A stretch of DNA of 64,000 nucleotides. Origin: Eretmocerus hayati. Lineage: Eukaryota > Arthropoda > Insecta > Hymenoptera > Aphelinidae. A program made the translations under genes and the position numbers. Shown here one piece after another: positions 774-52,689 of this stretch (position 1 is the stretch's first letter; each line of letters starts with the position of its first letter). A model generated the notes under the pieces. That model was given only the letters and a program-made list of their open reading frames with translations. It searched no databases and had not been told where the DNA came from. The stretch is taken from contig CM056743.1 of assembly GCA_029851415.1 (NCBI GenBank), forward strand, positions 70,834,186 through 70,898,185, read 5' to 3'.

Positions 774-3700
774 CTACGTTACTCTAATACAAGCATGTTT
801 TAGCTTATTAATATGAACTACTTTATTCCTATTATTACCTAGATCAATTCTTGCATTACAATCTCCAATAATTTCTAAAATCTTATATCTACCAGCATAT
901 TGTTCGTCAAATTTGGAATTTCTGGGTTCTTTTAAGAGATAGACTTCTTCACCTACTGAAAAATTCTGAACATTTAATTTCTCATCATGGAACTTACTGG
1001 ATCTTATTTTTGCTTCAATGAGTTTTTCCTTTGCAGTCTGTTGGGTGTAATTCAAAGTGGAAATCAGCTCATCTAAATATTGGGAATAAGATTTTTCTGG
1101 CGGTGGCAGATTGAAACTGGAAGGTACTCGAGCTGTTCTACCAAAAATTAGGGAGAAAGGAGCATAGCCATGACTCGAATGAATTTGAGTGTTATAAGAG
1201 AACATAGCACATTCCACGTAGGAACTCCAATTATCCTTATTCGCATACATTTTAAGATATTCTATTAAACTATGATGTGAACGTTCAATGGATCCCATAG
1301 TCTGTGGTCTAAAACTGCATGAACGAATCTTTTCAATTTTGAATATTTTGGCAAAATATGCCATTAGTTGGGATTGAAAATTACTACCTTGGTCTGTTTT
1401 GATTATTCTCGGGCATCCAAATCTACAAATGAATTTTTTACAAAACTCTATAGCTATTGTTTCTGCGGTAATATCTTTCAAGGGAATAGCGTCGGAATAC
1501 TTCGTTAAATTGCATTGAATTGTTAATAAATATTTGTATCCTTCTTCTGTAATAGGCAAAGGGCCGACAATGTCCATTTCAACTATCTCAAAAGCTGTAT
1601 TTGGTGTGGTGGTTATGGTCATTGGTAATTTTGTCTTTACTCGAACTAATTTTTGTCTTTGACATTCTGGACAAGATTTTACATATTGATTAATTTGTTC
1701 CCGCATTCCAGGCCAAAAATAACGTTCCCTAATACGTTTATAACATTTGAAATTACCCTTATGACCTGCTATCCCTGAATCATGATTTTCTTTGATTATT
1801 CCTAATCTATTTTCTACAGAGGGGATTGAGACTTCTCCCGTGCATAAGGTGAGCTGTAAATTTCCGTCCTTCCAAGTTGTTCTCAGAGCATTCTCAATTG
1901 AAGCCCAATTCAAATTTTCAAGACCGTCTCCCTTCTTTGCAAGGCTTACAGAATATTGGTTATCATTTATCAATGCATTCCTCAATGTAGCCATGTACAT
2001 GATGAACATAGCTCCGGAAGGAGGATCATCGTATTTTTCTTTGAGAAAAATAGTGTAAATATTTTTTCGTTTATCAGAAGAAGTGCGAAGGACCGCACCC
2101 AAACCAATGGGTTCATTTTTCATAACTTCTAAGTCAATCAGTTCAAGATCCACCAATTGCTTACTTACTTCTGTATCAACAACACAGTCTAACGCTAGAA
2201 AATGTACCAAATTGTCATCACGCATCAGTAATTGATCCGGTGAAGATTTTACGTGTTCTATCAAAAGAGTTCTAGCTAGAGGTAGAATTTTTCCTTTTCC
2301 AAGTTTCGTTATGGCCTCTATAGTATGCTTTCGAATTTTTCTTGGTATGCCGAAGCTTTTCTCTTCGTCAGACATGGATAAGGATGGGCATTTGGAGGGT
2401 AACAGCTCGGCCGTTCGTTTCTTAGGACGTTCATTCATTTTCTTATGTTCTTCACTCATACTCTCTTTTGTTACAGGTACCTGTTCGTTTTTGGTGGTGG
2501 CAGCCTGCCTGGTTATTTCCCCCGGAAGGGCCTCATTCAACCCTTCATCTGCCCGGTGACCTGTATGGGCTCGAGACCAGATGGAACTCTCTTGGCTCAT
2601 CAAACTCTCTTCGGAGTCAAGCCCTTCATCATCACAAGAGCTTGCAGGAGCCTGTGACACGATGGTTAATATTTGACTCATGAAATCGACTGAGAAGTCG
2701 ATTGAGAGTCCTTCGTCCAGTCGATAGCCTACAGGAGCTTGTGACGTAACGGATGCCAGTCTTGATTCCTTAATTGGAATTTGTCTATCTACTTCATCAT
2801 CTGAATCAGAACTGTCTAATACAGTTACTTTCTTTCGATGGCTTCCTGGGGAATAAGAGGATGGATTTGGGACCGGATTCCGAGATAAGCTATCGGCGTT
2901 GACGTTATTTTTACCACTCTTATGTACGATATCGAAATTGAATGATTGTAACCGGATTTTCCAACAAGCAAGTCTCGATACCGGATCTTTGAGTTTATGA
3001 AGCCAAACTAATGCTCTGTGATCACTTACTACCGTGAACTTTCGCCCGTAAACGTAAGGCCGAAATTGCGAAATTGCATATATTACACTTAAAAGTTCCT
3101 TTTCTGAAGTATTATAGGAAAGTTCAGCGTCACTCAGAATTCTTGAACAATAAGCAATTGGCAAATCTTTTCCAATAGGGCCTTGGCTCAAAATTGCTCC
3201 AATGCTCCAGTTGCACGCATCGGCTGTAATGACAAAGGGCTCCTCGAATCTAGGGTATTGGAGCAGTGGCTGTGTACACAGTATGGTTTTCAATTGTTCA
3301 AAAGCTTTTTCTTGTGGTTCTAACCATGTAAAGGCACTGTCCTGTCTCAAAATCATAGTGAGAGGTTTTGAAATCTCAGCAAAATTTTGAATGAATCGTC
3401 GGTAATATCCCGCTAACCCTAAAAATTGTTTGATGTTCTTTTTTGTTTGTGGCCTCGGAAATTTGGCAACTGCTTCTATTTTCTGGGGATCCGGTCTTAC
3501 TCCTTCTTCTGAAATGACATGTCCTAAGTACGTAACCTCCTTTCTCAGAAATAGACATTTGTCAGGTTGCAAAGTCAGTCCAGCGGTTTGAAGTCTACCT
3601 AACAGTTTCATCATTTTTTCAAAATGCGTTTGTAAATTCTCAGAAAAGACCACAATATCGTCTAAATATATCAGAATTTCGAGGGGTTGTAAACCAGTCA

Positions 3701-5129
3701 GAATTTTGTTCATTGTTGCTTGAAAAATAGCTGGAGAAGACTTCAAACCCATTGGGAGACGAGTCCATTGGAGGTGGGAAAAGGGGGTGGAAAATGCCGT
3801 TTTTGCTTTGGCCTTATCACTAAGGGGTAGTTGCCAATATCCGCTGGCCAAATCAAGAACCGTAAAATATTTACTGCGACCTAGTTGGTCCAAAATCTCC
3901 GTGATGTTAGGTAAGGGAAAAGCTGGTGCTATTGTTTTCTCATTTAGGGCTCGGTAATCGATGACAATTCTCCAGCGTTTGTTCCCTTTCGAGTCGGGTT
4001 TCTTAGGCAAAATCCAAAGAGGTGCATTATACGGGGACTCAGATGGTTCTACAATACCATCTTCCAATAATTCATCAACTTGTTCCGCAACGATATTACG
4101 GAGATGATGGGGGTGTCGATATTGTTTAATATGTACCGGGATATCATCAATGGTATTAATTTCACAAACACCTGTTGAGAGTTTGCCTAATTTTTCGCCA
4201 GGTAATTGGAACTGATACGGAAATTTCCTCACAATCCGTGCCACATGCTCTTTTCCTTCCTCAGTCAAGCCATCCAAATTCAGCCTCGCTAGAACTTGTA
4301 GAGCCCGTTTAATCTTATCTTTTTTGCATTGCTTTTTTGTACACTTCTTTATCATTCGAATGGCGGCTTTATTGGTATAAAATTCCTCTATTTCAACGGG
4401 AGGTATGATAAGATCAATATCCTGTTCGTTTGAGTTAACAATTATCATATAGCAATAACCGTTTCTATTGGTGACCAGGCATTCGCCTCCATAGATTCCA
4501 GGACCAGCTTTGATTCGTGGAACATAGCCTTGTTTTTTATCTGAATTTTTCACTTTAATCTTACAAAGTTGACGATTACGGGCAGGAAGATGAATTTTAT
4601 CGTGATTAATGAATGGAATTGCCTTATGAAGATACTCTTTAATAGAGACATTTTGATTTTCAAATGATAAATTGGCTTTATTTTCTTGCAAAAATTCCAC
4701 TCCAAGAATGCCATCTTGTACTATAGGAAATTCATTAGGGACCACATTCATTTTACATTCGATATTCCCAAAATTGATGATGCATTCTCCTAAGGTCTGT
4801 ACAAATCCTTCACTGATTCCGGATAATCCATAAACTATTCCTCTATTTATAACAACATTGTCTTGGAGGGCGTCTAATTTAATAAGATTCAGTTCGGAAC
4901 CCGTGTCGATGATAAAGGAGGGTTTTTCTGATTTCAGATGGCCACTAGCGAGACTGATGATTGGAGGCTTGTGATGAGTTATGTAGCCTATTTGGACAAT
5001 TGCTCTAAGTCGGACACTCGAGAGGTTTGCGTCCGGGGTGTCGCCGTGTCCATGCGGCTGACGCCGTTCCCGTTTAAAGGCCTTCTCGGGAAGGTGTTGG
5101 GTTGCCCATTTGTATCGCGAAACTTGCAA
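774..5129 (-). CDS. pol: Ty3/gypsy Pol polyprotein (PR-RT-RNaseH-macrodomain-like-IN)
   Basis: Intact 1451-codon frame encoding the enzymes for reverse transcription and integration. Order: aspartic protease with DTG at residues 75-77; reverse transcriptase around 350-530 with YLDD at 488-491; RNase H around 630-750; integrase with an HHCC zinc-binding region around 1116-1156 and catalytic D1186, D1246 and E1282 (D-D35-E spacing). Between RNase H and integrase are a charged linker with three DEGL-containing repeats (about 796-866) and a segment at about 968-1098 resembling a TARG1/OARD1-type macrodomain. The frame is -1 relative to gag and overlaps it by 142 nt. A UUUAAAC heptamer sits in that overlap, so translation is probably as a Gag-Pol fusion and the true N-terminus is not the first Met. 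No stops or frameshifts interrupt it, implying recent activity. The family assignment is secure; the macrodomain is inference from pattern. Confidence 0.95.
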   Translation of the reverse strand: MQVSRYKWATQHLPEKAFKRERRQPHGHGDTPDANLSSVRLRAIVQIGYITHHKPPIISLASGHLKSEKPSFIIDTGSELNLIKLDALQDNVVINRGIVYGLSGISEGFVQTLGECIINFGNIECKMNVVPNEFPIVQDGILGVEFLQENKANLSFENQNVSIKEYLHKAIPFINHDKIHLPARNRQLCKIKVKNSDKKQGYVPRIKAGPGIYGGECLVTNRNGYCYMIIVNSNEQDIDLIIPPVEIEEFYTNKAAIRMIKKCTKKQCKKDKIKRALQVLARLNLDGLTEEGKEHVARIVRKFPYQFQLPGEKLGKLSTGVCEINTIDDIPVHIKQYRHPHHLRNIVAEQVDELLEDGIVEPSESPYNAPLWILPKKPDSKGNKRWRIVIDYRALNEKTIAPAFPLPNITEILDQLGRSKYFTVLDLASGYWQLPLSDKAKAKTAFSTPFSHLQWTRLPMGLKSSPAIFQATMNKILTGLQPLEILIYLDDIVVFSENLQTHFEKMMKLLGRLQTAGLTLQPDKCLFLRKEVTYLGHVISEEGVRPDPQKIEAVAKFPRPQTKKNIKQFLGLAGYYRRFIQNFAEISKPLTMILRQDSAFTWLEPQEKAFEQLKTILCTQPLLQYPRFEEPFVITADACNWSIGAILSQGPIGKDLPIAYCSRILSDAELSYNTSEKELLSVIYAISQFRPYVYGRKFTVVSDHRALVWLHKLKDPVSRLACWKIRLQSFNFDIVHKSGKNNVNADSLSRNPVPNPSSYSPGSHRKKVTVLDSSDSDDEVDRQIPIKESRLASVTSQAPVGYRLDEGLSIDFSVDFMSQILTIVSQAPASSCDDEGLDSEESLMSQESSIWSRAHTGHRADEGLNEALPGEITRQAATTKNEQVPVTKESMSEEHKKMNERPKKRTAELLPSKCPSLSMSDEEKSFGIPRKIRKHTIEAITKLGKGKILPLARTLLIEHVKSSPDQLLMRDDNLVHFLALDCVVDTEVSKQLVDLELIDLEVMKNEPIGLGAVLRTSSDKRKNIYTIFLKEKYDDPPSGAMFIMYMATLRNALINDNQYSVSLAKKGDGLENLNWASIENALRTTWKDGNLQLTLCTGEVSIPSVENRLGIIKENHDSGIAGHKGNFKCYKRIRERYFWPGMREQINQYVKSCPECQRQKLVRVKTKLPMTITTTPNTAFEIVEMDIVGPLPITEEGYKYLLTIQCNLTKYSDAIPLKDITAETIAIEFCKKFICRFGCPRIIKTDQGSNFQSQLMAYFAKIFKIEKIRSCSFRPQTMGSIERSHHSLIEYLKMYANKDNWSSYVECAMFSYNTQIHSSHGYAPFSLIFGRTARVPSSFNLPPPEKSYSQYLDELISTLNYTQQTAKEKLIEAKIRSSKFHDEKLNVQNFSVGEEVYLLKEPRNSKFDEQYAGRYKILEIIGDCNARIDLGNNRNKVVHINKLKHACIRVT
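1836..2228 (-). other. Macrodomain-like segment inside gypsy Pol
   Basis: Pol residues ~968-1098. The pattern resembles ADP-ribosyl-acceptor hydrolases of the TARG1/OARD1 type: a DNLVH...LDC start, a GAVLR strand, an IYTIFLKEKY strand where the family has a lysine-containing strand, a helix, then KKGDGLENLNW followed by a helix and a final L-L strand. In TARG1 the loop reads GCGLD before a conserved W. Here the loop is GDGLE, so the acidic residue is Glu (1071) instead of Asp. A lysine corresponding to the catalytic one could be K1030 or K1032. This was recognised by eye; a profile search was not possible. It may bind ADP-ribose without hydrolysing it. Confidence 0.6.
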
Positions 5130-6556
5130 TTGGCCTGCACATGTCCAGGTTTACCACAGATGTAGCAGAGTGAATTTTTACCGCGATATTCCCGTCGTTT
5201 CTTGGCTCGACACTCATTTTCGGAATGGCCAATTTTACTGCAGTATGTGCATTGAGAAGGAGCATTCCCGTTTCCCTTAGCCCGACATTGAGCTGCATAA
5301 TGACCATAACCGTCACACTGGTAGCATCTGATTCGCTTTCTATCAGAATTGAATCTACTTGAATTCCGTTGTTCATTTTCATGAGATGTTCCGGCATCAT
5401 TTTGATTAATCAGATGAACAAAACTGGGACGCGGATTGTTGCGAGGAAGTTCTTCTCGATGCAATTCCCGTCTTTGATTCACACACTTTTCAGATTCAAT
5501 AGCAGCTGACATGATCTTTCCTAATGTCTCAAATTTTTGCCCGGTTAACTGAAGAGAAATATCCTTTTCCAATCCCAACAAAAAGCATTCAATAGCAGTC
5601 TTTGTTGTTCCCTCTACCATACCCTTAGCTACGGCAACTAGGAATTCCTCATTTATCACTTCAATAGCCTGTCGTAAAATCTTATTAACTCTCAGACCAT
5701 ATTCAGAAACCTTTTCATTCGGTTTTTGTACCACACGTGCCAAATCTACTTGAAGCTGGGGCAGTTTTTGACCAGGCGAGAAAGACCTCTTAAGTTCTTC
5801 AAGTAATTCCTCTAAATTCTCAAAAAATTTTCCTTCCAAATAAGCACGTGCATCCCCCGTGATTTTAGCTCTGACCAATCGTAAAAAGAAGTCTTTGTCG
5901 CCAGGATCAACAAAACGCTCAGCATCTTTACATTCTCTTACAAATTGATTTACAGATAAGTTCTTTCCGTCAAAATCGGGTAATATTTTCACAATATCAG
6001 AGGTTTTACGAGTCTGGTTCCGTGACTCTGCGTTTGAATGTCTATCGGCTTGAGCTTGTGCGAGCCACGCTAAAGTTTGTAAATCAATAGATGGAGGTAA
6101 ATTAAGGTTTGCAGTTAAAGGAAAATGAGGATGCGAATAGGGTGGTTGAGAGGGAATTGCACTCGGATTTCTGGAATAAGCAGGGCTGGTGTTAATTGGG
6201 ATAGTTGGGGCTGGGATACCAGAATCCGGTTGACCGCGAGCTGAGCCAGATTCTCGTCTCATTCCCGGAATCAAAGCCGACTCTCGTGGTTCGCCCAAAT
6301 TATTTATTTCTTGCATAGGAGCATCCGGAATGGGATTGAGAGAATCTGGTACAGCTTGTATTCCCGGTAAATCATTGTTCGTCGGTTCACGCAAGGTATC
6401 ATGACTACCGATATTCGGGTTATTTTGAGTGTTTTCTGGGGATAGTTGCAAGTTCAAGTTGTTATTGGAACCGTCATTAGATGAATATGATGGAATGATG
6501 CGTTGCCCGCATGGTAAGCTATTAGTATCTGAATTTTGTGACCCATTTTCTGCCAT
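4988..6556 (-). CDS. gag: Ty3/gypsy Gag with three zinc knuckles
   Basis: Intact 522-residue protein starting at an ATG at 6556. The first ~180 residues are Asn/Pro/Ser-rich and look disordered. Residues ~190-360 match the helical capsid region of retrotransposon Gag. Three CCHC knuckles follow (CX2CX4HX4C) at 411-424, 436-449 and 464-477 in a basic nucleocapsid. Gag forms the particle and packages RNA. The pol frame begins within the last ~50 codons and the frameshift site falls at codons 494-495, so all three knuckles are kept in the Gag-Pol fusion. Three knuckles is more than the usual one or two. Confidence 0.93.
   Translation of the reverse strand: MAENGSQNSDTNSLPCGQRIIPSYSSNDGSNNNLNLQLSPENTQNNPNIGSHDTLREPTNNDLPGIQAVPDSLNPIPDAPMQEINNLGEPRESALIPGMRRESGSARGQPDSGIPAPTIPINTSPAYSRNPSAIPSQPPYSHPHFPLTANLNLPPSIDLQTLAWLAQAQADRHSNAESRNQTRKTSDIVKILPDFDGKNLSVNQFVRECKDAERFVDPGDKDFFLRLVRAKITGDARAYLEGKFFENLEELLEELKRSFSPGQKLPQLQVDLARVVQKPNEKVSEYGLRVNKILRQAIEVINEEFLVAVAKGMVEGTTKTAIECFLLGLEKDISLQLTGQKFETLGKIMSAAIESEKCVNQRRELHREELPRNNPRPSFVHLINQNDAGTSHENEQRNSSRFNSDRKRIRCYQCDGYGHYAAQCRAKGNGNAPSQCTYCSKIGHSENECRAKKRREYRGKNSLCYICGKPGHVQANCKFRDTNGQPNTFPRRPLNGNGVSRMDTATPRTQTSRVSDLEQLSK
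5072..5078 (-). promoter_or_regulatory. Slippery heptamer TTTAAAC for -1 gag-pol frameshift
   Basis: On the minus strand TTTAAAC lies in the gag/pol overlap. Its TTA and AAC triplets are gag codons 494 and 495, exactly the X XXY YYZ phase required for slippage. Pol is the -1 frame of gag. Five to six nucleotides downstream is a short GC stem (CGGC GTCA GCCG), the usual position for a stimulatory structure. Classic retroviral and coronaviral sites use the same heptamer. Confidence 0.8.
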
Positions 6557-7208
6557 GATTCGGTCGATTTCTCAGCCCAATCTATTCTACTTTACTTTAA
6601 ATATATGGAACCTAATTCTATCTTATCTCTACCGTTCAGACTCTTTTCTTATTTTTTTTTTTTTTTTTGCTCAATACTCTATCCAATTCATTCGATCTGG
6701 TTATAATGACTAATCAAAGAATTTTTCTGTTTCAGAAAGGGGACACTTAGCTTTTATGTCTGTAGGTAAGGTGCTGGTTGAAGTTCTCCTGCTGAATCCA
6801 AGTTCCTCGTTGGTTCTCCTGCTGGAATGGAGCTGTGTCGCTGATTTCTTCTAGATTTCTGGAGACAATATAATCTCTCGTCTATTTCTTGAGATTGTTT
6901 GGTGGTGTAGGGGGCCGCTCTCTATCTTCACCGGAATGGGTAGACCTTAGGGCACCTTGAATAGCTAGTTTCTTGGCTTGTTGTAACGCCCACAGGTTGT
7001 ATTCTGGAGAATCAGGAACGGGTCTCTTCTTGGACGTTTTTTCTCCTTCAGGCATGGCCTATCTTCTGCAAGCCCTGCCTCATAGACAGTGTTATGGAGA
7101 GCAGATCCCAGAGTTCGTTGAGGACTCAATAAGTTGGTTGAATGTTATTTCAACTTATTTTCCAGCGGTTTTTCTTGCTTCTCAACCCTATCTGTACTTC
7201 TGTGGACT
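6557..7208 (-). other. 5' leader of the gypsy element
   Basis: About 650 nt between the primer-binding site and the gag start codon. It contains a poly-T run on the plus strand near 6651-6669 (poly-A on the element strand). No coding frame on the element strand stands out. It would carry packaging and leader signals by position. Confidence 0.55.
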
Positions 7209-7226: not shown

Positions 7227-7430
7227 ATTTCTGTTACGAACTGAGCTTGATGTTAGCTCTAGAGGGAGCTAAAGGTATTGTTTTGCCGACTCCAAGATAT
7301 TCAATATAAAGCTGGCGAATAACTCGATCCAGAAATAATTTGGAAATATAAGGGATGTCCACTAAAGTATAAAAATACAAGAAGTACAAGGGTTCTGAAT
7401 AGAGAAGCTTGGAAGTCTTGAGAAAATGCT

Positions 7431-7436
7431 TTTATT
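7431..7436 (-). terminator. LTR polyadenylation signal AATAAA
   Basis: AATAAA on the minus strand downstream of the LTR TATA box. In the 3' LTR the equivalent copy would end the element's transcript. Confidence 0.5.
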
Positions 7437-7516
7437 TTTGTTGTACAGATATAAGCGTATGATCTGTCTCAAAGCTCTTCCAAACTCAAAAAGATCCCCG
7501 CTGTCGGCTGTCTGGT

Positions 7517-7527
7517 CCTTATATATT
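7517..7527 (-). promoter_or_regulatory. TATA box of gypsy LTR
   Basis: AATATATAAGG on the minus strand, followed by a downstream AATAAA about 85 nt later. Its position in the LTR suits the core promoter that drives the gag-pol RNA. Confidence 0.6.
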
Positions 7528-7930
7528 CTTGGAGCTTTCCAAAATATGGGAAGTCGCCCCTCCAGGTCCTGTCATCTATACACGTATCTCTATTACTTCT
7601 TCCGTGTGTTTTCCTAGAATCAGAAGGGGTAAGCGGCAGTTTTTTTGTTCTGTGGAATTTCCCTAAGGGGAGACATTGAGCGTGTTTTGACCGGAATTCG
7701 TCCGAATCATGCAGGTGGGCATCCTTGATCTGTCAGTCTCATCGCTTTCTTTTTTATGTGGGTGACAGGCTCTCTCTACACTGTGGCAGCAAGAAGCGCT
7801 TTTTATTTCCTCTTTTTATCTTGACCTCGCAGGTGTGCTTGTTTACGCAGAAACCTTACCCTCGTAAAGTTTTCCGTAAGAGTCCTATTTTTTTATAACT
7901 ATGTAAGGCACCGATTCCTAAAAGGAGTGA

Positions 7931-7934
<4 letters not shown>

Positions 7935-7986
<52 letters not shown>
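7935..7986. repeat. (GA)n microsatellite
   Basis: About 26 uninterrupted AG dinucleotides directly outside the presumed LTR region. Confidence 0.97.
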
Positions 7987-7987
<1 letters not shown>

Positions 7988-8148
7988 ACCTTAAAGTATT
8001 TTGGCTGTCTTTATGCCTATTAGGCGTCTTTCATATCTTCGCGCCTTTCAGGTATAAGGCCGCCATCTTCGCGCCTTTCATAATTTCACCTAACCTCCCC
8101 TAACCCTGCTTGTGCGTCATCTTCCAGCTGCTACATTTTCTCTACACG

Positions 8149-10246
8149 TGCATGTGCCGCGCAAGTTTCTGGGGGCCCCGCGTGCAGACTAGGTCGGTAC
8201 GGCAGATTGCCTTTTTGAAATTTTTTCAATGTTTTCTGCTCTGCGCCCGTATCTAACTAATATATAGGCTGAGTATAAGGCTGCATGGCTGTATGTTATA
8301 GTTGATGTATATTGAGCTGCAAGGGAATACTATAATCAAAGATGCTGTAATTGTTGATTATTTATTGCCAATTATTGATGCCGCTTGAGCTAGTTCAACA
8401 ATTATTTGTAAAAAATTCATGTTCCAGAAATGATTATTATGGACTGACTGATATGATAGTCAAGTGCATTTGAATTAATCAATACCATATCAATACTTAA
8501 TCAATCAGTTATACGTGTATTCAGTGAGAGGTTAGGGTATTCAAATCCAAACATTGTTATTGTGGCCTTTATTGTGTTGAGGGCCCTGGCTTTTATAACA
8601 ATCGCAGCTTTTATAAACTCATGAAACTTTGTGATTAACCGATTAGGTTGAGTGATAGTGAAGTATTATGCTACGCTATTAAAAATGTCATGGATTTTCA
8701 TCACCAAACAGTTACAAATCACTCTTTACCACATATTTTCTTTTCAACAGTGCACATGCATATTTTTGTGATGGTGGAGACGCTAGGATGTGAGATTTTA
8801 GTGTCTTCAGTCCTTGGCACAATCAAAAATTACTTGGAAGTTTATTCGGTTGGAGAACCACAGAATAAACTTTGACAGTGAGTCAAAAATAATGAGTTTT
8901 GGATTTATAGATTCTGGATTTTTCCCATCAATAATGTTGAGTTGTACACATAGTAATTCATTAACTCAAACATGGAGATGTTGGATTCTCTGAATCCAAT
9001 TCTGAATCAATCTGTAATGAATATTTTTTTTTAGAATTTGTTCATTAGAATTACCCTCTAATGAGAGTAAGTATTGTTATGGGAGCTGAGGAAAGAGTAA
9101 ACATGTCACTCATCATGGATCTTATTTTCTTCAGAATTCCGCAATCATGAGAGACAGATCTATTCACCCTGAAATAATCAAACATCAGCCTCCACAATAT
9201 CAGCTATGTGAATCTTCATACTTATAGAACCAAGATAGATTGATCGGTGTCCTGTAGGATACATGTGGCCATTGCTCTATTATTTTTGTTGAAACTCATA
9301 CCATGAACTTATTCTATTGCCGCTACACAACACATTCTATCGCAGTATTGAACTTGATCCCTATATAGGACAGATGAATTCCATTATAAGCAAACAAATA
9401 TTTAAATGTAAAAAAATGGATCGTCAACATGCATCAGACTAGAGGCAGCATAAGACATATCATTGATGGGGAAAATCCAGAATCTATAAATCCAAAACTC
9501 ATTGTTTGTTTTTTTATTGTTTTTGACTCGCTGTCAAAGTTTATTCTGCGGTTCTACAACCGAATAAACTTCCAAGTAATTTTTGATTGTGCCAAGGACT
9601 GAAGACACTGAAATCTCTCATCCTAGCGCCTCCACCATCTCAAAAATATGCATGTGCACTGTTGAAAAGAGAATATGTGATAAAGAGTGATTTGTAACTG
9701 TTTGGTGATGAAAATCCATGACATTGTTAATAGCGTAGCATAATACTTTACTATCACTCAACCTAATCAGTTATTCACAAAGTTTCATGAGTTTATAAAA
9801 GCTGCGATTGTTATAAAAGCCAGGGCCCTCAACCCAATAAAGGCCACAATAACAATGTTTGGATTTGAATACCCTAACCTCTCACTGAATACACGTATAA
9901 CTGATTGATTAAGTATTGATATGGTATTGATTAATTCGAATGCACTTGACCATCATATCAGTCAGTCCATAATAATCATTTCTGGAACATGAATTTATTA
10001 CAAATAATTGTTGAACTAGCTCAGGCGGCATCAATAATTGGCAATAAATAATCAACAATTACAGCATCTTTGATTATAGTATTCCCTTGCAGCTCAATAT
10101 ACATCAACTATAACATACAGCCATGCAGCCTTATAAGCCTTATACGGGCGCAGAGCAGAAAACATTGAAAAAATTTCAAAAAGGCAATCTGCCGTACCGA
10201 CCTAGTCTGCACGCGGGGCCCCCAGAAACTTGCGCGGCACATGCAC
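8149..10246. mobile_element. Foldback element with ~780-bp inverted arms
   Basis: The sequence 8149-8932 recurs as its reverse complement at 9462-10246 with scattered substitutions (about 95% similar by eye), around a ~530-bp unpaired centre. The arm tips read GTGCATGTGCCGCGCAAG and its complement. No transposase frame was seen in the arms or centre, and I could not define a target duplication. It fits a non-autonomous foldback/long-TIR DNA transposon. A transcript through it would form a very long hairpin. Confidence 0.85.
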
Positions 10247-11060: not shown

Positions 11061-12031
11061 AGACTGTGAAGGTATGAAACCTTCGATCCCAGATAACCGT
11101 GAACCTACAACTCGGAGAATCTCGACTCGTACTACAAAATGAGAGGAAAATGGTCTATTAACATGTAGTCCAAGGCACAAACTATCGTTCCGCATTCACC
11201 CAAGACCGCACCTTGTGCCAAAGAGCGACTCCTACGTGTAGTCAAAGACGTAAACTACCATTCCGCATTCACACGAGATTATGCTTCGTGCTGGAGAGTC
11301 CCCACGCGTAGTCAAAGATATAAAGTGACGATCCGCATTCGCGCAGGGTTGTGTCTTGTGCTGAAGGGTGGCTCTCGACTAAATAAAGATATTGGAATTA
11401 AATGATGGATTAACCATAAGCCAACGGTCACGTTGGTCTGAGAACACGTTGTTGACATGATTTCCGAGTCCCAACCGGGACTCATGATTCCAGAACTCCC
11501 TGCGGATACACGGCATGGAAGCCGTCGGCAACGGACATCGGACAAGCCTCAAGCCAAAGCAAAGACCAGCTACAGCTACGTGCATAAGCCAAGCAACGCT
11601 AAGAGGACATGAGATGCAGCATCGCAACAGCCAAAGGGGGCGGTCGACAAACAACACTCGCCGTACAGCCATGACCTCATTACCGCATACGGCCATGAGA
11701 CTCGGCAACGTCGCATACGCTTGGCAACGCCGACGCCACCACCTAGCAACAACAAGCCCGGCGCCGCTGCATACCGAGGGGAGGCCTTATTAGATGACGC
11801 AACCGACAACCAATCAGAGACGCTGCCCAGACGAGAGAGAGTCTCCCCTCCAGCGCGCAGATTCACGACGCGCTCGATCGATAATGGCCGCGCACGAATT
11901 AGGCAACAGCCCGCCCCCTTTCAGTAGTCGGCACCGCCCAGATCCATGATGGCGCATCAAGGAGAGGATGCGCACGCACCACCAGCAACCAGTCAGAGGC
12001 TTCCGTGGGCGTAACCACGCCACTCAGCTAA

Positions 12032-20133: not shown

Positions 20134-20554
20134 AAAAAGTTCGAGTCATGGACTCGAATTTTTTATAAGGGGGGGACTGATATGGCAATATCGCCGACCC
20201 CAACGACCCCAAGGATCACACTCTTTTCTCTTACCCATCTAAGCGCCTTTCTTCCTTCTATTCCAACGAGGCTTACACGGACCGCCGTACGTACCGCCAT
20301 ACCTCCAGCGCGGGATCACTAATACTACATGCCATCTTTTTCCTCTGAAAATTTTTCTGACACACACATTTATAAAAAACGTTGAACCATACTCAAGATT
20401 CTAATTTTTACTGATTCTGACCGTGACAAAATTCAAGATCCACTCTCATAGAAAAGCCTCAGACACCTGATTCTGGCAATTGAGTACATCTCATCGAATT
20501 TCATTCTCTGAAAAAGTTCGAGTCATGGACTCGAATTTTTTATAAGGGGGGGAC
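20134..20554 (+). repeat. Duplicated polypurine-tract module
   Basis: A 44-bp segment ending TATAAGGGGGGGAC occurs at 20134-20177 and again at 20511-20554, 377 bp apart and essentially identical. The second copy abuts the 3' LTR (TGTTAAGG) and is the functional polypurine tract. The first is followed by TGATATGG, not LTR sequence. Confidence 0.85.
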
Positions 20555-22319
20555 TGTTAAGGTATGAAACCTTCGATCCCAGATAACCGTGAACCTACAA
20601 CTCGGAGAATCTCGACTCGTACTACAAAATGAGAGGAAAACGGTCTATTAACATGTAGTCCAAGGCACAAACTATCGTTCCGCATTCACCCAAGACCGCA
20701 CCTTGTGCCAAAGAGCGACTCCTACGTGTAGTCAAAGACGTAAACTACCATTCCGCATTCACACGAGATTATGCTTCGTGCTGGAGAGTCCCCACGCGTA
20801 GTCAAAGATATAAAGTGACGATCCGCATTCGCGCAGGGTTGTGTCTTGTGCTGAAGGGTGGCTCTCGACTAAATAAAGATATTGGAATTAAATGATGGAT
20901 TAACCATAAGCCAACGGTCACGTTGGTCTGAGAACACGTTGTTGACATGATTTTCGAGTCCCAACCGGGACTCATGATTCCAGAACTCCCTGCGGATACA
21001 CGGCATGGAAGCCGTCGGCAACGGACATCGGACAAGCCTCAAGCCAAAGCAAAGACCAGCTACAGCTACGTGCATAAGCCAAGCAACGCTAAGAGGACAT
21101 GAGATGCAGCATCGCAACAGCCAAAGGGGGCGGTCGACAAACAACACTCGCCGTACAGCCATGACCTCATTACCGCATACGGCCATGAGACTCGGCAACG
21201 TCGCATACGCTTGGCAACGCCGACGCCACCACCTAGCAACAACAAGCCCGGCGCCGCTGCATACCGAGGGGAGGCCTTATTAGATGACGCAACCGACAAC
21301 CAATCAGAGACGCTGCCCAGACGAGAGAGAGTCTCCCCTCCAGCGCGCAGATTCACGACGCGCTCGATCGATAATGGCCGCGCACGAATTAGGCAACAGC
21401 CCGCCCCCTTTCAGTAGTCGGCACCGCCCAGATCCATGATGGCGCATCAAGGAGAGGATGCGCACGCACCACCAGCAACCAGTCAGAGGCTTCCGTGGGC
21501 GTAACCACGCCACTCAGCTAATGACGTCATTTCGTCTATATAAGGAGCCTACAGACGCCCGCCAGCAGACTTGGGGCTTGAGACCCAGACCTATAACCTC
21601 AGCCTCGCTTGAGTAACCACCTAACGAGCCTTGCATTGTCACTCTGTATTTCTATTCTGTATATCGTATTGCATAACGCCAGTTCTGTGTAGAGTCAGTT
21701 AATAAAGCCACTTTAATTGTCGCCACTGCTTCCATTGTGCTTCAGCACTTAACAATCCAACGAACCCGGTCCTTCCATCGTAACGATAACAACGATCCAG
21801 AGATCCAGCCATCCAACAGTTCCAGCAACAGCAGCAGCCGCTACCGAAAAATCATAAGTACAAGGTTTGTAAGCGTATGAGAAAGACCCAGTCCTCGACG
21901 GAACGGCCGACGAAAATACCAGGAGGGGCTAGTTCCGTTACCGAGGTCTATCCTGAGGAATACCAACCTCCTCTGAAGGTCTCTAATTATACACCTGAGG
22001 CCGTACTTACGCTCCGTCGCACGACAAGAGTGCTCGATCTGACCGTCTATGGCACTTCTCCGACGGACGACGAAAGATGTCTGACCCCAGTGGACCCAGG
22101 CGTTGCCCGCGCTGCCATTTCAAGTTCCCAGGAGCCAGTCGAACAGCGACCGTCTACGAGTTGTACGCCTTGCAACAAGCCCGTCGTCTAGCCCGCGCCG
22201 GCGCAGAATCGAGTAGGCCTCGAGTTATAAACGATGCCGTGCCAGATTCGACAACTAACCCAAGCGTTCCGTCTTCGCCAGAATCATCGTCCCAGTAACT
22301 TCAGGGCTCGTTCATAACA
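20555..22319 (+). repeat. 3' LTR of pol-less element
   Basis: 1,765 bp, TGTTAAGG...TTCATAACA, the same length as the 5' copy with about six substitutions. It is followed by the target duplication AGAC (22320-22323). Promoter and poly(A) copies are at 21522-21545 and 21701-21706. Confidence 0.95.
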
Positions 22320-33109: not shown

Positions 33110-34532
33110 TGTAACGTGGCGGGCATCAGCAGGGGGAAATTTCCTGAAAAGATAAACCCACCCAATGCCACCTCATTTATTTGGGCCGGATCGGGTTAGG
33201 GCCAGGCACCCCGCGCCACGAGGGGCGGGACAATGGGGCAAATTGGGAGCACCTGAAAATCACGAAAATATTCTGCGGACACTGTATATATATATCGTAT
33301 CGAAATAATCACTCTCCAGATTTACGAAATTATAAACGAAATTTATTGCTATTAGGAACTCTCATTTCGAGGCACGCAGGCCAATAAACCTAGTTACAAC
33401 GCCATCTGTGGCGGATCTGTGCATCTAACGTCCATGAATCGTTCAATAAACTCACGGCAAAAATATCTCGAAATTCACTTCAGAGCGGAAACGCCCATAT
33501 CCACTCGTTCGAAAAATCACTGCACCACTTTGTAGCAGAAATGCCCATATACACGGTGGGTGGAGCTAACTTGAGGGGTGGGAGCTATTCCCCAGCTGGC
33601 GGGCCCGTCCCTCTCCAACTCTCCGCGCCTTTGTCTCCGGAAGTTAGAATTATTACGCAAAATGGCCGCTACACCGACCCGCGTGGCCTAGCATGGCCAA
33701 AACGTGCATACAAAGATGAGCACGGGGAGTTGGAGGGACACGGTTACGACGCGATGGGTTGGCGGACAAGAAGGACACACCGCGTCGCGAGCTGGGGAAT
33801 AGGCCACCCGGTAGCCCTGGACACGACTCTCCGCCCGGGGGGTTCACGATGAGGGCGGATGCACCCTGGGGAAGACGTAATGCCACTCACCGCGTAGGTC
33901 TATGTCGTCCGGAAGCTCACTGCGATAGCGCTACTGCTGCGCTGTTGCTGCTCTGCTGCTGGGGCTGCTTGATTTTGCTGCTGCTGCAGCTCTCTCTCTC
34001 TCTCTCTCTCTAGCCCAGTCCGGGTCACCCTCCAAAAGCTGGGTTTCCTGGGCGAGATGTGGTCGTGTGGGGTGGCCACGCGTCAGCACACGCTAACACA
34101 AGTCTTGGCACTAGCACTGGGTTCACCCGCACACACACGAAACGTCTTGTGCACCCGCGGCACGATCACTGGACCCGTCCTGGGTCGCTACTCCTGGAAC
34201 ACGCGGCGAATTTAAAGGCACGATCCGCAGGGAGGTCTATCTAGGCCGGCAGCCATCCCAAGATTGCCGGCCGGCGATGCGCGGCGCGGCTTCCTCTAGC
34301 CCGCGCAAGCGCTGCGCCGCCCGGCTTGGTGGGCTGGAAGGTGCTGCCACCACGCTGGTGGCGGGAGCCATCAGCCCATTTGAAACGTCGTTGTCGTCTT
34401 CTTCTCGTCACCTCGGGCACCTCAACAAAAAAGTATAACACACGAAAATCAGACCTTGATTTACTTTGCCCGAGGTGACGACGAGGGTTTAACGAGAGGA
34501 GACGCAAAGCGTGCTGCAACGTCCACGTTGCA
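33110..34532 (-). repeat. 3' LTR (left copy) of SAP-ORF element
   Basis: 1,423 bp. The plus-strand left end is TGTAACGTGG and the right end is the perfect 18-nt stem TGCAACGTCCACGTTGCA. It contains a CT repeat (about 33993-34012) four bases longer than the other copy and two minus-strand AATAAA signals. Long frames crossing it on both strands (for example 33541-33852) are present in both copies but look like GC-rich chance frames. Confidence 0.93.
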
Positions 34533-40176: not shown

Positions 40177-41732
40177 CTTGATGCCTACGCGGTGACGTTC
40201 AACTTGCCACGGGATAATTAGGGTAGTTACTCTCTCGATGAGATAGGCGGATCTCCAAACCCACTGGCGGACCCTGATGAGACGATTGTCTCGGTGGACT
40301 CCTTGTTGAGGTTTTGAATCCTCGACGGAAAATTTTAGGAAAATGGGCAAGGATAAGGATGTGCGAGCCCCCTTCCTCCTCTATTCACACTACTATTACT
40401 AAAATAGCATGCAATGTAATCAGATGGGGACGGAGAGTCGTGTATCCTTCGCAGATGTCCGCATTTGGTATGGGAACGCTCCAGCTCCTCGAGTTATCCC
40501 GCGCGAGTCGAACAGTGCCCTACGATTTCATGCATTACTCGCCCTTGCTTCGCGGTGTGAGAGCATGTTCCGCTGATCTACCCGAAGAGAGTTGTGCAGA
40601 TTCTTCGGGAAATAGTCCAAAAGTCCGAAAGCTCCGAAGCATTTTGCCCCCAAGACGGAATCGGAATTTTGGAGACGCCCTCTACCGGCTTAATCGATGG
40701 GACAAATGAATCGCAACGCCTATCGCAACGAGCAAATTAGCAGGAATCGAATCGCGTGGTTCAGTCACGTCATCGGTGAAAAATCATTGTAATTTCACTC
40801 GACGTCAGAACGGAAACGACTACCGAAACAGGTGCTCCACGAGCTTCAGTTTGAGTACCCACATGGTGGGGTAAATATTAGTCGGATGCCCCGGGGATCA
40901 ATGGCGCCGACGGGTGAAGCGGCAGTGCTGCCCCCCTATGGCGGGCCGTAAAGTACTCTCCGGGAGCTATTTAACCAGTACCCACACGACGGGTGTTGTC
41001 TCAATAAGAAACTCGCGTGCGTGGTGGCGCTAGTGTGCACCACGGTGGTGAAGCGCCCTCTATCGCATTGGATAGTATTCACAAAGCCATGTCCAACGAG
41101 TACCCACACGGTGGGTTTCGCGTCAATAGGGAGCTCGCGCGCCAGGTGGCGCTGGTGTGCGCAACGATGGCGGAGCGCCCTCTAACGGTCCGACTAGTAC
41201 TCGCCGAGACGTGTTCTACGAGTACCCACACGGTGGGTTCCGCGACAATAGGGAGCTCGCGTGCCAGGCGACGCTGGTGTGCGCGACGATGGCGGAGCGC
41301 CTTCTATTGGCCTGAAAAGTACTTGCCAAGAGGTTCCCAACGAGTACCCACACGGTGGGTTCCGCGTCAATAGGGAGCTCGCACGCCACGTGGCGCTGGT
41401 GTGCGCGACGATGGCGGAGCGCCCTCTAGCGACCTGAAAAGTACTCGTCAGGAGCTTTCAATCGAATACCCACACGGCGGGGTATTTTACAAACGTGTCA
41501 CTGAGCGCGAGCGGGGGCGAATGCGCGGCACTATGGGGGCGGGGGGTGATGTCACTCGTTGACACAGAGTGCTCGGGAGTAAGCGCGCGGGATTGCATGC
41601 AAATAATATTGAATCATCGGCATACACCGAGGGCCCGACATTCACCCCAAGTCCACGTAGTACCGCGTCGATGCTCTCACACGCACGAGCAGTGTCCGCA
41701 GCTACGTTCCGGACGCTCCCGGGCGTCAACCG
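40177..41732 (-). repeat. Leader with 122-bp minisatellite (40972-41480)
   Basis: Between the primer site and the ORF. Four to five units of about 122 bp start at 40975, 41098, 41219, 41342 and 41464, each opening with GAGTACCCACACGG and containing GGTGGCGCTGGTGTGCGC and GGAGCGCC. A related partial unit is near 40855. Frames through the array exist on both strands because the unit is GC-rich. Confidence 0.85.
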
Positions 41733-41752: not shown

Positions 41753-43171
41753 TGTAACGTGGCGGGCATCAGCAGGGGGAAATTTCCTGAAAAGATAAAC
41801 CCACCCAACGCCACCTCATTTATTTGGGCCGGATCGGGTTAGGGCCAGGCACCCCGCGCCACGAGGGGCGGGACAGTGGGGCAAATTGGGAGCACCTGAA
41901 AATCACGAAAATATTCTGCGGACACTGTATATATATATCGTCTGGAAATAATCACTCTCCAGATTTACGAAATCATGAACGGAATTTATTGCTATTAGGA
42001 ACTCTCATTTCGAGGCACGCAGGCCAATAAACCTAGTTACAACGCCATCTGTGGCGGATCTGTGCATCTAACGTCCATAAATCGTTCAATAAACTCACAG
42101 CAAAAATATCTCGAAATTCACTTCGGAGCGAAAACGCCCATATCCACTCGTTCGAAAAATCACTGCACCACTTTGTAGCAGAAATGCCCATATACACGGT
42201 GGGCGGAGCTAACTTGAGGGGTGGGAGCTATTCCCCAGCTGGCGGGCCCGTCCCTCTCCAACTCTCCGCGCCTTCGTCTCCGGAAATTAGAATTATTACG
42301 CAAAATGGCCGCTACACCGACCCGCGTGGCCTAGCATGGCCAAAACGTGCATACAAAGATGAGCACGGGGAGTTTGAGGGACACGGTTACGACGCGATGG
42401 GTTGGCGGACAAGAAGGACACACCGCGTCGCGAGCTGGGAAATAGGCCACCCGGTAGCCCTGGACACGACTCTCCGCCCGGGGGGTTCACGATGAGGGCG
42501 GATGCACCCTGGGGAAGACGTAATGCCACTCACCGCGTAGGTCAATGTCGTCCGGAAGCTCACTGCGATAGCGCTACTGCTGCGCTGTTGCTGCTCTGCT
42601 GCTGGGGCTGCTTGATTTCGCTGCTGCTGCAGCTCTCTCTCTCTCTCTCTAGCCCAGTCCGGGTCACCCTCCAAAAGCTGGGTTTCCTGGGCGAGATGTG
42701 GTCGTGTGGGGTGGCCACGCGTCAGCACACGCTAACACAAGTCTTGGCACTAGCACTGGGTTCACCCGCACACACACGAAACGTCTTGTGCACCCGCGGC
42801 GCGATCACTGGACCCGTCCTGGGTCGCTACTCCTGGAGCACGCGGCGAATTTAAAGGCACGATCTACAGGGAGGTCTATCTAGGCCGGCAGCCATCCCAA
42901 GATTGCCGGTCGGCGATGCGTGGCGCGGCCTCCTCTAGCCCGCGCAAGCGCTGCGCCGCCCGGCTTGGTGGGCTGGAAGGTGCTGCCACCACACTGGTGG
43001 CGGGCGCCATCAGCCCATTTGAAACGTCGTTGTCGTCTTCTTCTCGTCACCTCGGGCACCTCAACCAAAAAGTATAACACACGAAAATCAGACCTTGATT
43101 TACTTTGCCCGAGGTGACGACGAGGGTTTAACGAGAGGAGACGCAAAGCGTGCTGCAACGTCCACGTTGCA
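41753..43171 (-). repeat. 5' LTR (right copy) of SAP-ORF element
   Basis: 1,419 bp matching 33110-34532 with about 30 substitutions and a shorter CT run. On the element strand a TTTAAAT (about 42846-42852) could serve as TATA box, with AATAAA near 41978 and 41819. Followed by the target duplication TAAC at 43172. Confidence 0.93.
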
Positions 43172-43175
43172 TAAC

Positions 43176-43429
43176 ACACGCATAAATTTTGTTCATAATC
43201 CTTGCCATCACCGGGACACATGCTGAAGCTACTTACACGATAGGTCTGGTTATCCCAAAGTGGGTGACAATGATGAGCATCATACGCGCGCGTCGGCACC
43301 TCCGCAACAGCACGCTGTTGCTGAGGTGTCCAATATATATAGGTATATGAGCGAGCGGCTCGGCACCTCCGCAATAGCAAGCCGTTGTAAGGTGCCTGAA
43401 GTATAGTGAGATTTGAGAGGTTGCAACAC
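43176..43429. other. Junction sequence, no gene
   Basis: About 250 bp between the LTR element and the satellite. A phrase CGGCACCTCCGCAA occurs twice (near 43294 and 43359), each followed by a self-complementary GCTGTTGC-type stem. No coding sequence. Confidence 0.5.
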
Positions 43430-46400
43430 AACCACTTGATCTAAGGTTCTGTAGAGTTTCGGGTCCATTGAAACTATTTGTAACCCACAGGGGTCTCATA
43501 ACTGCGCAGATAACTGCCCAAATGTCGATTTTGCCCTGTTTTGGGCCCTATAGCACAGGGTGCTGACTGGTAATAGAATCTCTGTGAGTCACCGATGGTA
43601 CATAATCACTTGATCTGAGGTTCTGTAGAGTTTCGGGTCCATGAGATTATCTTACACCCCACAGTGGCGTCAATACTGCGCAGATAACTGCTCGAAGCTC
43701 GATTTTGCCCTGTTTTGGGCCCCATAGCCAAGGGTGCTGACTGGTGATAGATTCTCTGTACATCACCAATGGTACATAATCACTTGATCTGAGATTCTGT
43801 ACAGTTTCGGGTCAATTGGAACATCCTACAACCCACACAGGCGTCATCACTGCGCAGATCACTGCCCAAAGGTCGATTCCGCCCTGTTTTGGGCACCATA
43901 GCCGAAGGTGCCGACTGGTAATAGAATCTCTGTGCATCAAAGATGGTACATAATCACTCGATCTGAGGTTTTGTGGAGTTTCGGGTCCATTGGATTATCT
44001 TACAACCCACAGTGGCTTCATAACTGCGCTGATATCTACTCGAAGGTCGATTTTGCCCTGTTTTGGGCCCCATAGCCGAGGGTGCTGACTGGTAATAGAA
44101 TCTCTGTGCATCAAAGATGGTACATAATCACTCGATCTGAGGTTTTGTGGAGTTTCGGGTCCATTGGATTATCTTACAACCCACAGTGGCTTCATAACTG
44201 CGCTGATATCTACTCGAAGGTCGATTTTGCCCTGTTTTGGGCCCCATAGCCGAGGGTGCTGACTGGTAATAAATTTTCTTGGGATCGGGAATAGTACGTG
44301 CCTACAAAATCGAGGATTCTGTAGAGTTTCGGGTCAATTGGAGCATCCTACAACCACAGTGGCGTCATCACTGCGCAGATAACTGCCCAAAGCTCGATCC
44401 CGCGCGGTTTTGGGCCCCATAGCCGAGGGTGCTGACTGGTAATGAATCCTCTGGGCATTCACAAAGAGACAAAACCACATAATCTGAGGTCCTGTAGAGT
44501 TTCTGGTTGATTAAAACAATATGCAACCCACAGGGGTCTCATAGCTGCGCAGATACCTGCCCGAAGCTCGATTAGGCCCTGTTTTGGGCCCCATAGCCGA
44601 GGGTGCTGACTGGTAATGAATTCTTTGGACTCCGCTAATGGTACGTGACTACATTGTAGGGGTTTCTGTAGAGATCTGGGTCAATTGGATTATCCAACAA
44701 CCACGGTGGCGTCATCACTGCGCAGATAACTGCCCAAAGCTCGATCCCGCGCGGTTTTGGGCCCCATAGCCGAGGGTGCTGACTGGTAATGAATCCTCTG
44801 GGCATTCACAAAGAGACAAAACCACATAATCTAAAGTTCTGTAGAGTTTCTGGTTGATTAAAACAATTTGCAACCCACAGGGGTCTCATAGCTGCGCAGA
44901 TACCTGCCCAAAGCTCGATTAGGCCCTGTTTTGGGCCCCATAGCCGAGGGTGCTGACTGGTAATAGAATCTCTGTGCGTCACCATTGGTACATGATCTCT
45001 CGATCGAAGGTTCTGTAGAGTTCCGGGTCCATGAGATTATCTTACAACCCACAGTGGCGTCATAACTGCGCAGATAACTGCTCGAAGCTCGATTTTGCCC
45101 TGTTTTGGGCCCCATAGCCGAGGGGACTGACTGGAAATGAATCTCCTGGGCATTGAAAATGGTACGTGACTACAAGATAGAAGATTCTGTAGAGTTTCGG
45201 GTCAATTGGAACATCCTACAACCCACAGTGGTGGCATCGCTGCGCAGATAACTGCTCAAAGGTCGATTTCACCCTGTTTTGGGCCCCATAGCCGAGGGTG
45301 CTGACTAGTGATAGATTTTCTGCGCATAACCAATGGTACATATCCAATGGACCTAAGGTTCTGTAGAGTTTCGGGTCCATTGAAACAATTTGCAACCCAG
45401 AGGTGTCTCATAACTGCGCAGATAACTGCCCAAAGTCCGATTTCGTCCTGTTTTGGGCCCCATAGCCGAGGCTGCTCACTGGTGATAGAATTTCTGTGTA
45501 TCATCAATGGTGAATCAGCACTTGGTCTAAGAATCTGTAGAGTTTCGGGTCCATTGGATTATCTTACCCCCCACAGTGGCGTCATAACTGCGCAGATAAC
45601 TGCTCGAAGCTCGATTTTGCGCTGTTTTGGGCCCCATAGCCGAGGTCGCTGACTGGTAATAGAATCTCTGTGCATCACCAATGGTACATAATCACTCGAT
45701 CTAAGGTTTTGTAGAGTTTCGGGTGCATTGGATTATCTTACCACCCACGGTGGTGTTATAACTGCGCAGATAACTGCCCAATGCTCGATCTCGCCCTGTT
45801 TTGGGCCCCATAGCCGAGGTCGCTGACTGGTCAAGAGCTCTCTGGGCATCAACAATGATACATAACCACTCCATCTAAGGTTCTGTACAGTTTCGGGTCC
45901 ATTGAAACAATTTGCAACCCACAGGTGTCCCATAACTGCGCAGATAACTGCTCAAAGCTCGATTTCGCCCTGTTCTGGGCCCGATAGCCGAGGGTTCTGA
46001 CTGGTAATGAATTCTCTGGGCATCATCAATGAGTTACAATCACTCCATCTGAGGTTTTGTAGATTTTCGGGTCCATTAGATTATCTTACCCCCCACAGTG
46101 GCGTCATAACTGCGCAGATAACTGCTCGAAGCTCAATTCCGCCCTGTTTTAGGCCCCATAGCCGAGGTCGCTGACTGGTAATAGAATCTCTGTGCATCAC
46201 CAATGGTACATTATCACTTGATCTAAGGTTTTGTAGAGTTTCGGGTGCATTAGATTATCTTACCACCCACGGTGGCGTCATAACTGCGCAGATAACTGCC
46301 CAAAGCTCGATCCCCCCTGTTTTGGGCCCAATAGCCGAGGGTGCTGACTGGTTACACAACCACTTGATCTGAGGTTCTGTAGAGTTTCGGGTCAATTGGA

Positions 46401-46990
46401 ACATCCTACAACCCACAGTGGCGTCATCACTGCGCAGATAACTGCCCAAAGCTCGATTTCGCCCTGTTGTGGGCCCCATAGCCGGGGGTGCTGACTGGTA
46501 ATAAATTTTCTGGGCATCACCACTGATACACAACCACTCGATCTGAGGTTCTGTAGAGTTTCGGGTCAATTGGATTATCCTACAACCCACAGTGGCGTCA
46601 CCACTTCGCAGATAACTGCTCAAAGGTCGATTTCACCCTGTTTTGGGCCTCATAGCCGAGGGTGCTGTCTGGTCATCAATGTTCTGCGCATCACCAATGG
46701 TACATAACTTCTTGAGTTGATGTTCTGTAGAGTTTTGGATTCATTGGAACCTTTTACAACTCGAAAAGGCGTCATAACTGCGCGGAACATGCTCAAAGCT
46801 GGATTCCGTCCTGTTTTGGGCCCCATAGCCGAGGGTGCTGGCTGGTAATAACTTTTCCGATCCCAGTCGATGGTACCCTATCACTTGATCTGAGGTTTTT
46901 CAGAGTTCCGGGTCCTTTGGGACTCTCTTCACCCCCTCGTGACGTCTCGACTGCGACTATAATGACTCTAAGCAGGGTCCCCCCTGTTCT
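43430..46990. repeat. ~175-bp satellite array, left
   Basis: About 20 tandem units of 172-176 bp. Each contains GTTCTGTAGAGTTTCGGGTC, GCGTCATAACTGCGCAGATA, CTGTTTTGGGCCCCATAGCC and GAGGGTGCTGACTGGTAAT. Two neighbours (about 43930-44105 and 44106-44280) are nearly identical, and a ~350-bp two-unit block recurs at about 44340 and 44690, showing recent local duplication. Units near 46,700-47,000 are divergent and mark an array edge. Frames across the array are artefacts. Confidence 0.95.
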
Positions 46991-51620: not shown

Positions 51621-52648
51621 ACTTTCGTGGATTGGACAACTAGTGATTTAGTGTCAAGATTGAAGTCTCTTCGAGTCTGCGGTAAACTCAATTCCACTTA
51701 TCAGTGAAAGTAGAGTCATTTTTCAAGTAGTATGGGTGTCTTATCAACTCAAAAGCACTAAGGAAGTTAGTGTCTGGCGTGTAAGAAAGCACAATACGAG
51801 AATTAGAGTCAATTGCGCGGTTGCCAAGGGCGTTCATATCCCAAGGGAATGAACATTCCACCATTCGGGACTCGATCCCGGGTGGCCGGGACTTAGTATA
51901 TCTTTAAACCTGATGGTGAAATGATTTAACCAAAACTCTGGCTTCATTCTTCTATTTTTTCGTTGTATTTCTAACAATTCAAGTTGATTGAATGATTTTT
52001 CTTTGATGATTCAGCTAAATCATTCCATTGTAAATAGCGTTTCGGATTATGGTTCTGCTTATGGACCTAAGTGATTTTATTTTGATCTGTTTCTTTGGTT
52101 ATCTATTTCACGAGAAAGGGAATGGACTTTTACTGAATCTTCTTAGATTTTGTTTTTGGAGATTCTACAATTTGTTATTAGTTAATTAACAGCCATACGG
52201 TTTCGCATTGATTTTTTTTCGATTTCAGTTGGGAATCGAACTGTTAGGTACATCTATTACGATTTTTGGAATTCTTCATCCAAATAGTTTTTCGAGCCTA
52301 CTGCTCTTTGTCATCAACTTCCAATTTGGATATGACACCCTTCGATTGTATTCTCTTAGGTTCGCGTCCTTTTTTGATGCATTGATGTACAATGAAATTA
52401 CCTAAGTTATCGATATATACATTATCGATTTTTTCAATAGTTTTGAATCGAGGTGGGCGGTATATTCAGTTTCATTACGATCTATTGTGAACGAATTGAA
52501 TTCTCGCGTGCATCCGCTGTTTTGTGTTCCCGCCCGAACCCCGCGCCGTCGCGTTCGTCGCCTTCCGCGGCTCTCGCCAGTTCCTGTCCAGCAGCCGACC
52601 GCACCACCTCGCTCAATATGTAATGAGCCCTTTTGCTTGGAATTTAAT
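51621..52648. other. 3' remnant of BEL element and spacer, no gene
   Basis: About 1 kb after integrase. A short inverted repeat GTTCAT...ATGAAC is at about 51832-51854, followed by a GC-rich CGGGACTCGATCCCGGG stretch that looks like a tRNA T-arm but has no cloverleaf around it. A GC-rich patch lies at 52515-52612. No LTR pair could be recognised. Confidence 0.5.
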
Positions 52649-52673
52649 ATAGTTTAATTGTTTATTAAACTAT
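52649..52673. repeat. Short perfect hairpin at array junction
   Basis: ATAGTTTAAT, five-base loop TGTTT, then ATTAAACTAT. It sits 15-20 bp before the first unit of the right satellite array. Confidence 0.8.
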
Positions 52674-52689
52674 GGTCTCAAAGTTATTC

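Follow-up and report, generated by a model that had tools for sequence, protein, structure and literature searches.

A TARG1-like macrodomain between RNase H and integrase in a Ty3/gypsy Pol of the wasp Eretmocerus hayati

What does a Ty3/gypsy retrotransposon encode in an extra stretch of Pol that separates its RNase H from its integrase? The question is raised by an element at the left end of a 64,000-nucleotide stretch of the Eretmocerus hayati genome (contig CM056743.1, positions 70,834,186–70,898,185; hereafter the window, meaning this whole stretch). In its minus-strand pol frame (774–5150), a gap of 376 residues lies between the RNase H match, which ends at residue 737, and the match to the H2C2 zinc-binding domain of the integrase, which starts at residue 1114. 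A first-pass annotation, made from the sequence alone, had put this gap at about 360 residues and had proposed that it holds a macrodomain of the TARG1/OARD1 type; the extra stretch is there, if slightly longer than stated, and the motifs quoted in support of the proposal are present on the minus strand of 1836–2228, in one open frame inside Pol. We consider it almost certain that this Pol module is a macrodomain. The stretch that aligns with TARG1 (approximately 1839–2255, minus strand) stands directly before the integrase, and a linker without a Pfam match (2274–2939, minus strand) fills the remainder of the gap.

The case for a macrodomain is carried by sequence homology and not by fold evidence. 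When the window stretch was used as a single query, its top five PDB matches were all TARG1 (C6orf130), with E-values of 0.12–0.16, and scans of the same single sequence against Pfam and NCBIfam returned no macro family. A profile of two sequences, the window copy and P0003 (55% identical; an E. hayati protein described below), matched TARG1 with an E-value of 5e-5, and when the profile was built from 26 copies in this genome, it matched human TARG1/C6orf130 with an E-value of 8e-17 (64.6 bits) over 139 positions, 7–145 of 153. The runner-up macrodomain chain with the 26-copy profile was 5m31 (E-value 0.15, 15.1 bits), and hhalign gave a probability of 98.3% for the 26-copy alignment against TARG1. 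The profile search by which the annotation had proposed to check its idea thus gave nothing when macro families were scanned with the lone sequence, but found TARG1 once the family was used, and the proposal itself is upheld by this homology together with the rank order of structural matches and the conservation of catalytic positions described below.

Two AlphaFold models were made from three-sequence alignments, and both were of low confidence (predicted local distance difference test, pLDDT, 42 and 44). TARG1 came first in Foldseek searches with each of them, its entries taking ranks 1–8 for the first model and ranks 1–6, 10 and 11 for the second; DarG macrodomains were also among the matches, at ranks 25 and 30 and at ranks 12, 14 and 23, respectively. 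Because every Foldseek E-value was 0.001 or higher, and because TARG1 did not stand out with a second aligner, VIA-align 2, we treat the fold evidence as supportive only. The structural comparison with TARG1 foreseen in the annotation therefore came out in its favour by rank, but not by model confidence, by significance or with the second aligner.

Positions important in TARG1 were compared in an alignment of 110 records from 109 of 150 places in the genome (the best 30, with others picked by hand). Near-identical copies were kept, and dropping 13 records with a stop left 97 stop-free copies, to which the counts below refer unless stated otherwise. At the position of the catalytic Lys84 (2040–2042 in the window copy, on the minus strand like all codons given here), Lys occurred in 88 copies, Arg in 6, and Thr, Glu and Asn in one each; at the position of Asp125 (1917–1919), Asp occurred in 79 and Glu in 18, the window copy being among those with Glu. 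Thinning 41 of the first 50 copies at 93% identity left 28, and these gave Lys 24, Arg 2, Thr 1 and Glu 1 at the former position, and Asp 19 and Glu 9 at the latter. The lysine and acid columns lie 41 residues apart in all 110 records, the same spacing as in TARG1. A Gly-Asp-Gly (1923–1931) matches the GxG pyrophosphate loop of TARG1, and GxG, Lys and Asp/Glu are found together in 77 copies; His stands at the TARG1 His32 position (2202–2204) in 94, and the Trp after the loop (1905–1907), which TARG1 shares, in every one of the 97. From the Glu, the annotation had suggested that the module might bind ADP-ribose without hydrolysing it; that residue is indeed present in the window copy, but the suggestion is weakened by the predominance of Asp in the family and by the retention of Lys. 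The chances that the module is a working ADP-ribosyl hydrolase appear to us evenly balanced.

Several results weigh against reading the module as a TARG1-type hydrolase. The cut-off of the Pfam Macro model (PF01661) was not reached, one of the 26 copies matching with an E-value of 0.062, and the VIA-align 2 outcome belongs here as well. The position of the adenine-contacting Asp20 holds Gln in the window copy and, across the stop-free copies, Gln in 39, Pro in 36, Arg in 16 and Thr in 5; the Thr83 position is Thr in 7 copies, the Pro118 position is Ala in 82, and the glycines of TARG1 loop 1 are mostly replaced. Because these residues are mostly changed, recognition of the adenosine probably differs from that in TARG1. 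With the Thr83 and Pro118 positions altered, the module also departs from the pattern TKx(30,35)Px[IL]GxGxD published for TARG1-type macrodomains (PMC6397177), and we therefore class it as a divergent relative and not as a canonical TARG1. In one divergent group, GxG is replaced by Y.V, Y.I, F.V or S.I while Lys and Glu are mostly retained, and six of the stop-free copies (L019, L050 and relatives) combine Arg at the Lys84 position with an Asp that replaces the first Gly of the GxG. Since the phosphate loop has been lost in the divergent group, binding-only or structural roles are possible, and some copies may not be hydrolases at all.

A search of the E. hayati genome with the domain, in which 150 of 850 candidates were scored and all 150 matched, yielded at least 150 matches of 28–100% identity with a worst E-value of 3.2e-17, many of them in open frames of more than 1,300 residues. 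The genome was also searched with the integrase (150 of 4,659 candidates scored), and six of six integrase relatives of 51–53% identity that lie outside the list of 150 macrodomain matches were found to carry the macrodomain. Two annotated "hypothetical proteins" of E. hayati contain the module too: P0003 (863 amino acids), in which it is joined to an end resembling ORF3 (described below), and P0004 (229 amino acids), which resembles an 87%-identical copy at G000:C3:154907530. These two were the only relatives recovered in protein-database searches, P0003 from 387 candidates and P0004 from 535, with none from 232; as the searches needed shared five-residue words and the last run missed P0003, absence outside E. 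hayati is not established. An IMG/VR search found no relative. A whole-genome search with PF01661 turned up four exon matches, divided between two other, host places that look MACROD2-like and GDAP2-like; given that the Pfam Macro model misses the Pol module, relatives may be overlooked elsewhere.

The module is under purifying selection. The ratio of nonsynonymous to synonymous differences (pN/pS), for 16 disjoint pairs of copies added together, was 0.133 for the macrodomain, 0.074 for the integrase and 0.519 for the upstream linker, the last measured on the 80 codons before the macrodomain in copies other than that of the window; an earlier run on three pairs had given the same order (0.098, 0.024 and 0.456). 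Distances between copies in the macrodomain and in the integrase were correlated (r = 0.955, 33 copies), and a value as high was reached in none of 2000 permutations. From the Gly-Glu at the end of the macrodomain to the His of the zinc domain, measured in 84 of the 94 copies examined, there were 18 residues in 69 copies, 19 in 14 and 27 in one, and RNase H was separated from the zinc domain by 357–658 residues (28 of 33 copies measured, with a crude motif). Because of this selection, the co-divergence and the near-constant spacing to the zinc domain, we conclude that the macrodomain behaves as a part of the integrase and not as a loose insert. The near-constant length of the seam is also the sole basis on which we suggest that it lacks a protease site.

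Our best reading overall, held with moderate confidence, is that the module is an integrase-linked ADP-ribosyl hydrolase of the TARG1 type that was captured by a Ty3/gypsy lineage. The capture would have placed the macrodomain between RNase H and integrase, and after processing of Pol it would remain on the integrase as an N-terminal domain, attachment being the most likely outcome given the seam of 18–19 residues and the co-divergence. It would then enter the nucleus with the integration complex. The substrate would be ADP-ribose placed by host PARPs on the ends of the complementary DNA (cDNA), on integrase or Gag, or on host factors found where the target is broken. Since an integrase-borne hydrolase would lie close to the cDNA ends and to the target break, where DNA-damage PARPs act, removal of ADP-ribose there, from DNA ends or from nearby proteins, is the most economical guess. 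Hydrolysis would proceed in the manner of TARG1, with the lysine attacking the distal ribose and the acid residue, Asp or Glu, resolving the lysyl-ADP-ribose intermediate (for the mechanism and roles of Lys84 and Asp125, see PMC6397177 and PMC9967889). TARG1 can strip DNA ends of the ADP-ribose that PARP3 attaches (PMC5725667), and its removal of thymidine-linked ADP-ribose from DNA depends on Lys84 (PMC8501950). According to a published genome analysis, E. hayati has undergone a recent burst of gypsy insertions (PMC13116730), and one could go so far as to propose that the integrase has a built-in DNA de-ADP-ribosylase, that this erases host-PARP ADP-ribose from cDNA ends and that it helped the burst. 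We regard this extended proposal as a long shot; if it were true, ADP-ribosylation of retroelement DNA ends would be a real host barrier in insects. If the module is active, it provides an experiment of nature on whether integration is limited by ADP-ribosylation, be it of the retroelement DNA, of the integrase or of the target chromatin.

The alternative that survives best, unlikely though we think it, is that the macro fold has been kept as an N-terminal extension of the integrase without a role in ADP-ribose metabolism; some retroviral integrases do have an N-terminal extension domain. Such a relic would account for the divergent group that lacks GxG and retains the domain in open frames, for several of the most conserved columns, which have no known catalytic part, and for the co-divergence with the integrase, yet the joint presence of GxG, Lys and Asp/Glu in 77 of the 97 copies (counts that ignore relatedness) is hard to explain by fold alone. 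Slightly more doubtful is a module that only binds ADP-ribose or poly(ADP-ribose) and, as the annotation had proposed, anchors the integration complex to poly(ADP-ribosyl)ated chromatin where breaks occur, much as a chromodomain holds a chromoviral integrase to histone marks. The short, near-constant seam to the integrase, the Glu of the window copy and the altered adenine contact and loop 1 are all consistent with binding; a pure binder needs no catalytic lysine, yet the lysine is there in 88 of the 97 copies, and the tethers known to us sit at the C-terminus of the integrase. We give a similarly low probability to counter-defence, in which the module would act not on integration but in the cytoplasm, its targets being proteins of the host or of the element that antiviral PARPs have marked. 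Viral macrodomains, such as those of coronaviruses and alphaviruses, serve counter-defence, but the wasp module sits in Pol beside the integrase and not in a separate ORF, and we know of no vertebrate antiviral PARPs from wasps. Macro-domain ORFs do occur in fish endogenous retroviruses (PMC4977317), and TARG1 works on both mono- and poly-ADP-ribosylated protein (PMC6397177), both of which favour counter-defence. Finally, a chance resemblance, with the stretch being an ordinary gypsy tether, is exceedingly improbable and we hold it refuted, since the empty single-sequence scans, the lone PF01661 match and the VIA-align 2 result that speak for it stand against family-profile homology (E-value 8e-17) that spans 139 of 153 positions, catalytic residues spaced exactly as in TARG1 and the Foldseek ranks.

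The element around the integrase-linked module is otherwise ordered as a Ty3/gypsy element. Along the Pol frame (1458 amino acids from stop to stop), a Pfam scan placed the reverse transcriptase (PF00078, 3513–4004), RNase H (PF17917, 2940–3248), the integrase H2C2 domain (PF17921, 1650–1811) and the integrase core (PF00665, 1305–1595), all on the minus strand and in the Ty3/gypsy order. The linker between RNase H and macrodomain contains tandem 13-residue repeats in two other copies (L117 and L122). Upstream on the same strand, the gag frame (4988–6571, 527 amino acids) contains zinc knuckles, and its retrotransposon gag match is barely above the cut-off. The 5′ long terminal repeat (LTR) covers at least 7373–8146 on the minus strand, and the matching LTR is found at lower coordinates, beyond the edge of the window. 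Of 748 aligned bases, 747 are identical between the two, if a (GA)n indel of 26 bases is set aside, and this near-identity suggests a recent insertion. Between pol and the 3′ LTR, outside the window, lies a 451-amino-acid open frame, ORF3 (L115:716–2071, minus strand, equal to G000:C3:70832401–70833756), for which no credible Pfam match was found; its cysteine-rich C-terminal part resembles the C-terminal part of P0003 (24% over 164 columns, E-value 4e-13). Near the 5′ LTR, an inverted repeat of 620 bases (8274–8893 and 9516–10135) is 97% complementary.

A second gypsy Pol of the window, located by tblastn, has its reverse transcriptase at 27446–26775, RNase H at 26774–26185 and integrase at 25932–25012. 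About 84 residues separate its RNase H from its integrase, which is 25% identical to that of the macrodomain-bearing element, and the macro profile run against the six-frame translation of the window gave a single match, at the 1836–2228 place, in agreement with the annotation, which had described this Pol as lacking the module. Elsewhere in the window, two pairs of direct repeats (11062–11361 and 20552–20851, 99% identical; 33110–33409 and 41753–42052, 98%) are possibly the LTR pairs of two more elements. A satellite-like tandem repeat of 174 bases forms two arrays (43310–46886 and 52632–55466), and a 122-base repeat is found at 40934–41543.

Among known systems, the best sequence match of the Pol module, over 139 profile positions, is TARG1 (C6orf130/OARD1), an ALC1-type macrodomain hydrolase, with which it shares the Lys84 and Asp125 positions, their 41-residue spacing, the Trp that follows the loop and, for the majority of the copies studied, the GxG loop itself. 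It differs from TARG1 in being part of a retrotransposon Pol, in the change of most residues at Asp20, Thr83, Pro118 and the loop-1 glycines, and, in the window copy, in having Glu for Asp125. The chromodomain integrases of chromoviral Ty3/gypsy elements also have a host-derived module for a chromatin mark joined to the integrase, but that module has another fold, concerns another mark and sits at the opposite end of the integrase. The macrodomain of DarG, an antitoxin that removes ADP-ribose from DNA, occurs among the Foldseek matches, and its catalytic Lys80 is equivalent to Lys84 of TARG1 (PMC9967889), whereas its sequence match is far weaker (5m31, E-value 0.15) and its context is a bacterial toxin–antitoxin system. 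Our literature search, from which subscription literature was mostly absent, found no macrodomain reported within an LTR-retrotransposon Pol among the papers listed, which were judged by title and abstract. The nearest precedent is the macro domain of Epsilon-like endogenous retroviruses of ray-finned fish (PMC4977317, citing Basta et al., 2009), which are likewise retroelements with a macro domain; there it is an additional ORF in vertebrate retroviruses, whereas in the wasp it lies inside the Pol of an insect Ty3/gypsy element, where a domain resembling an eraser of ADP-ribose is placed in the integration machinery of a large group of LTR retrotransposons.
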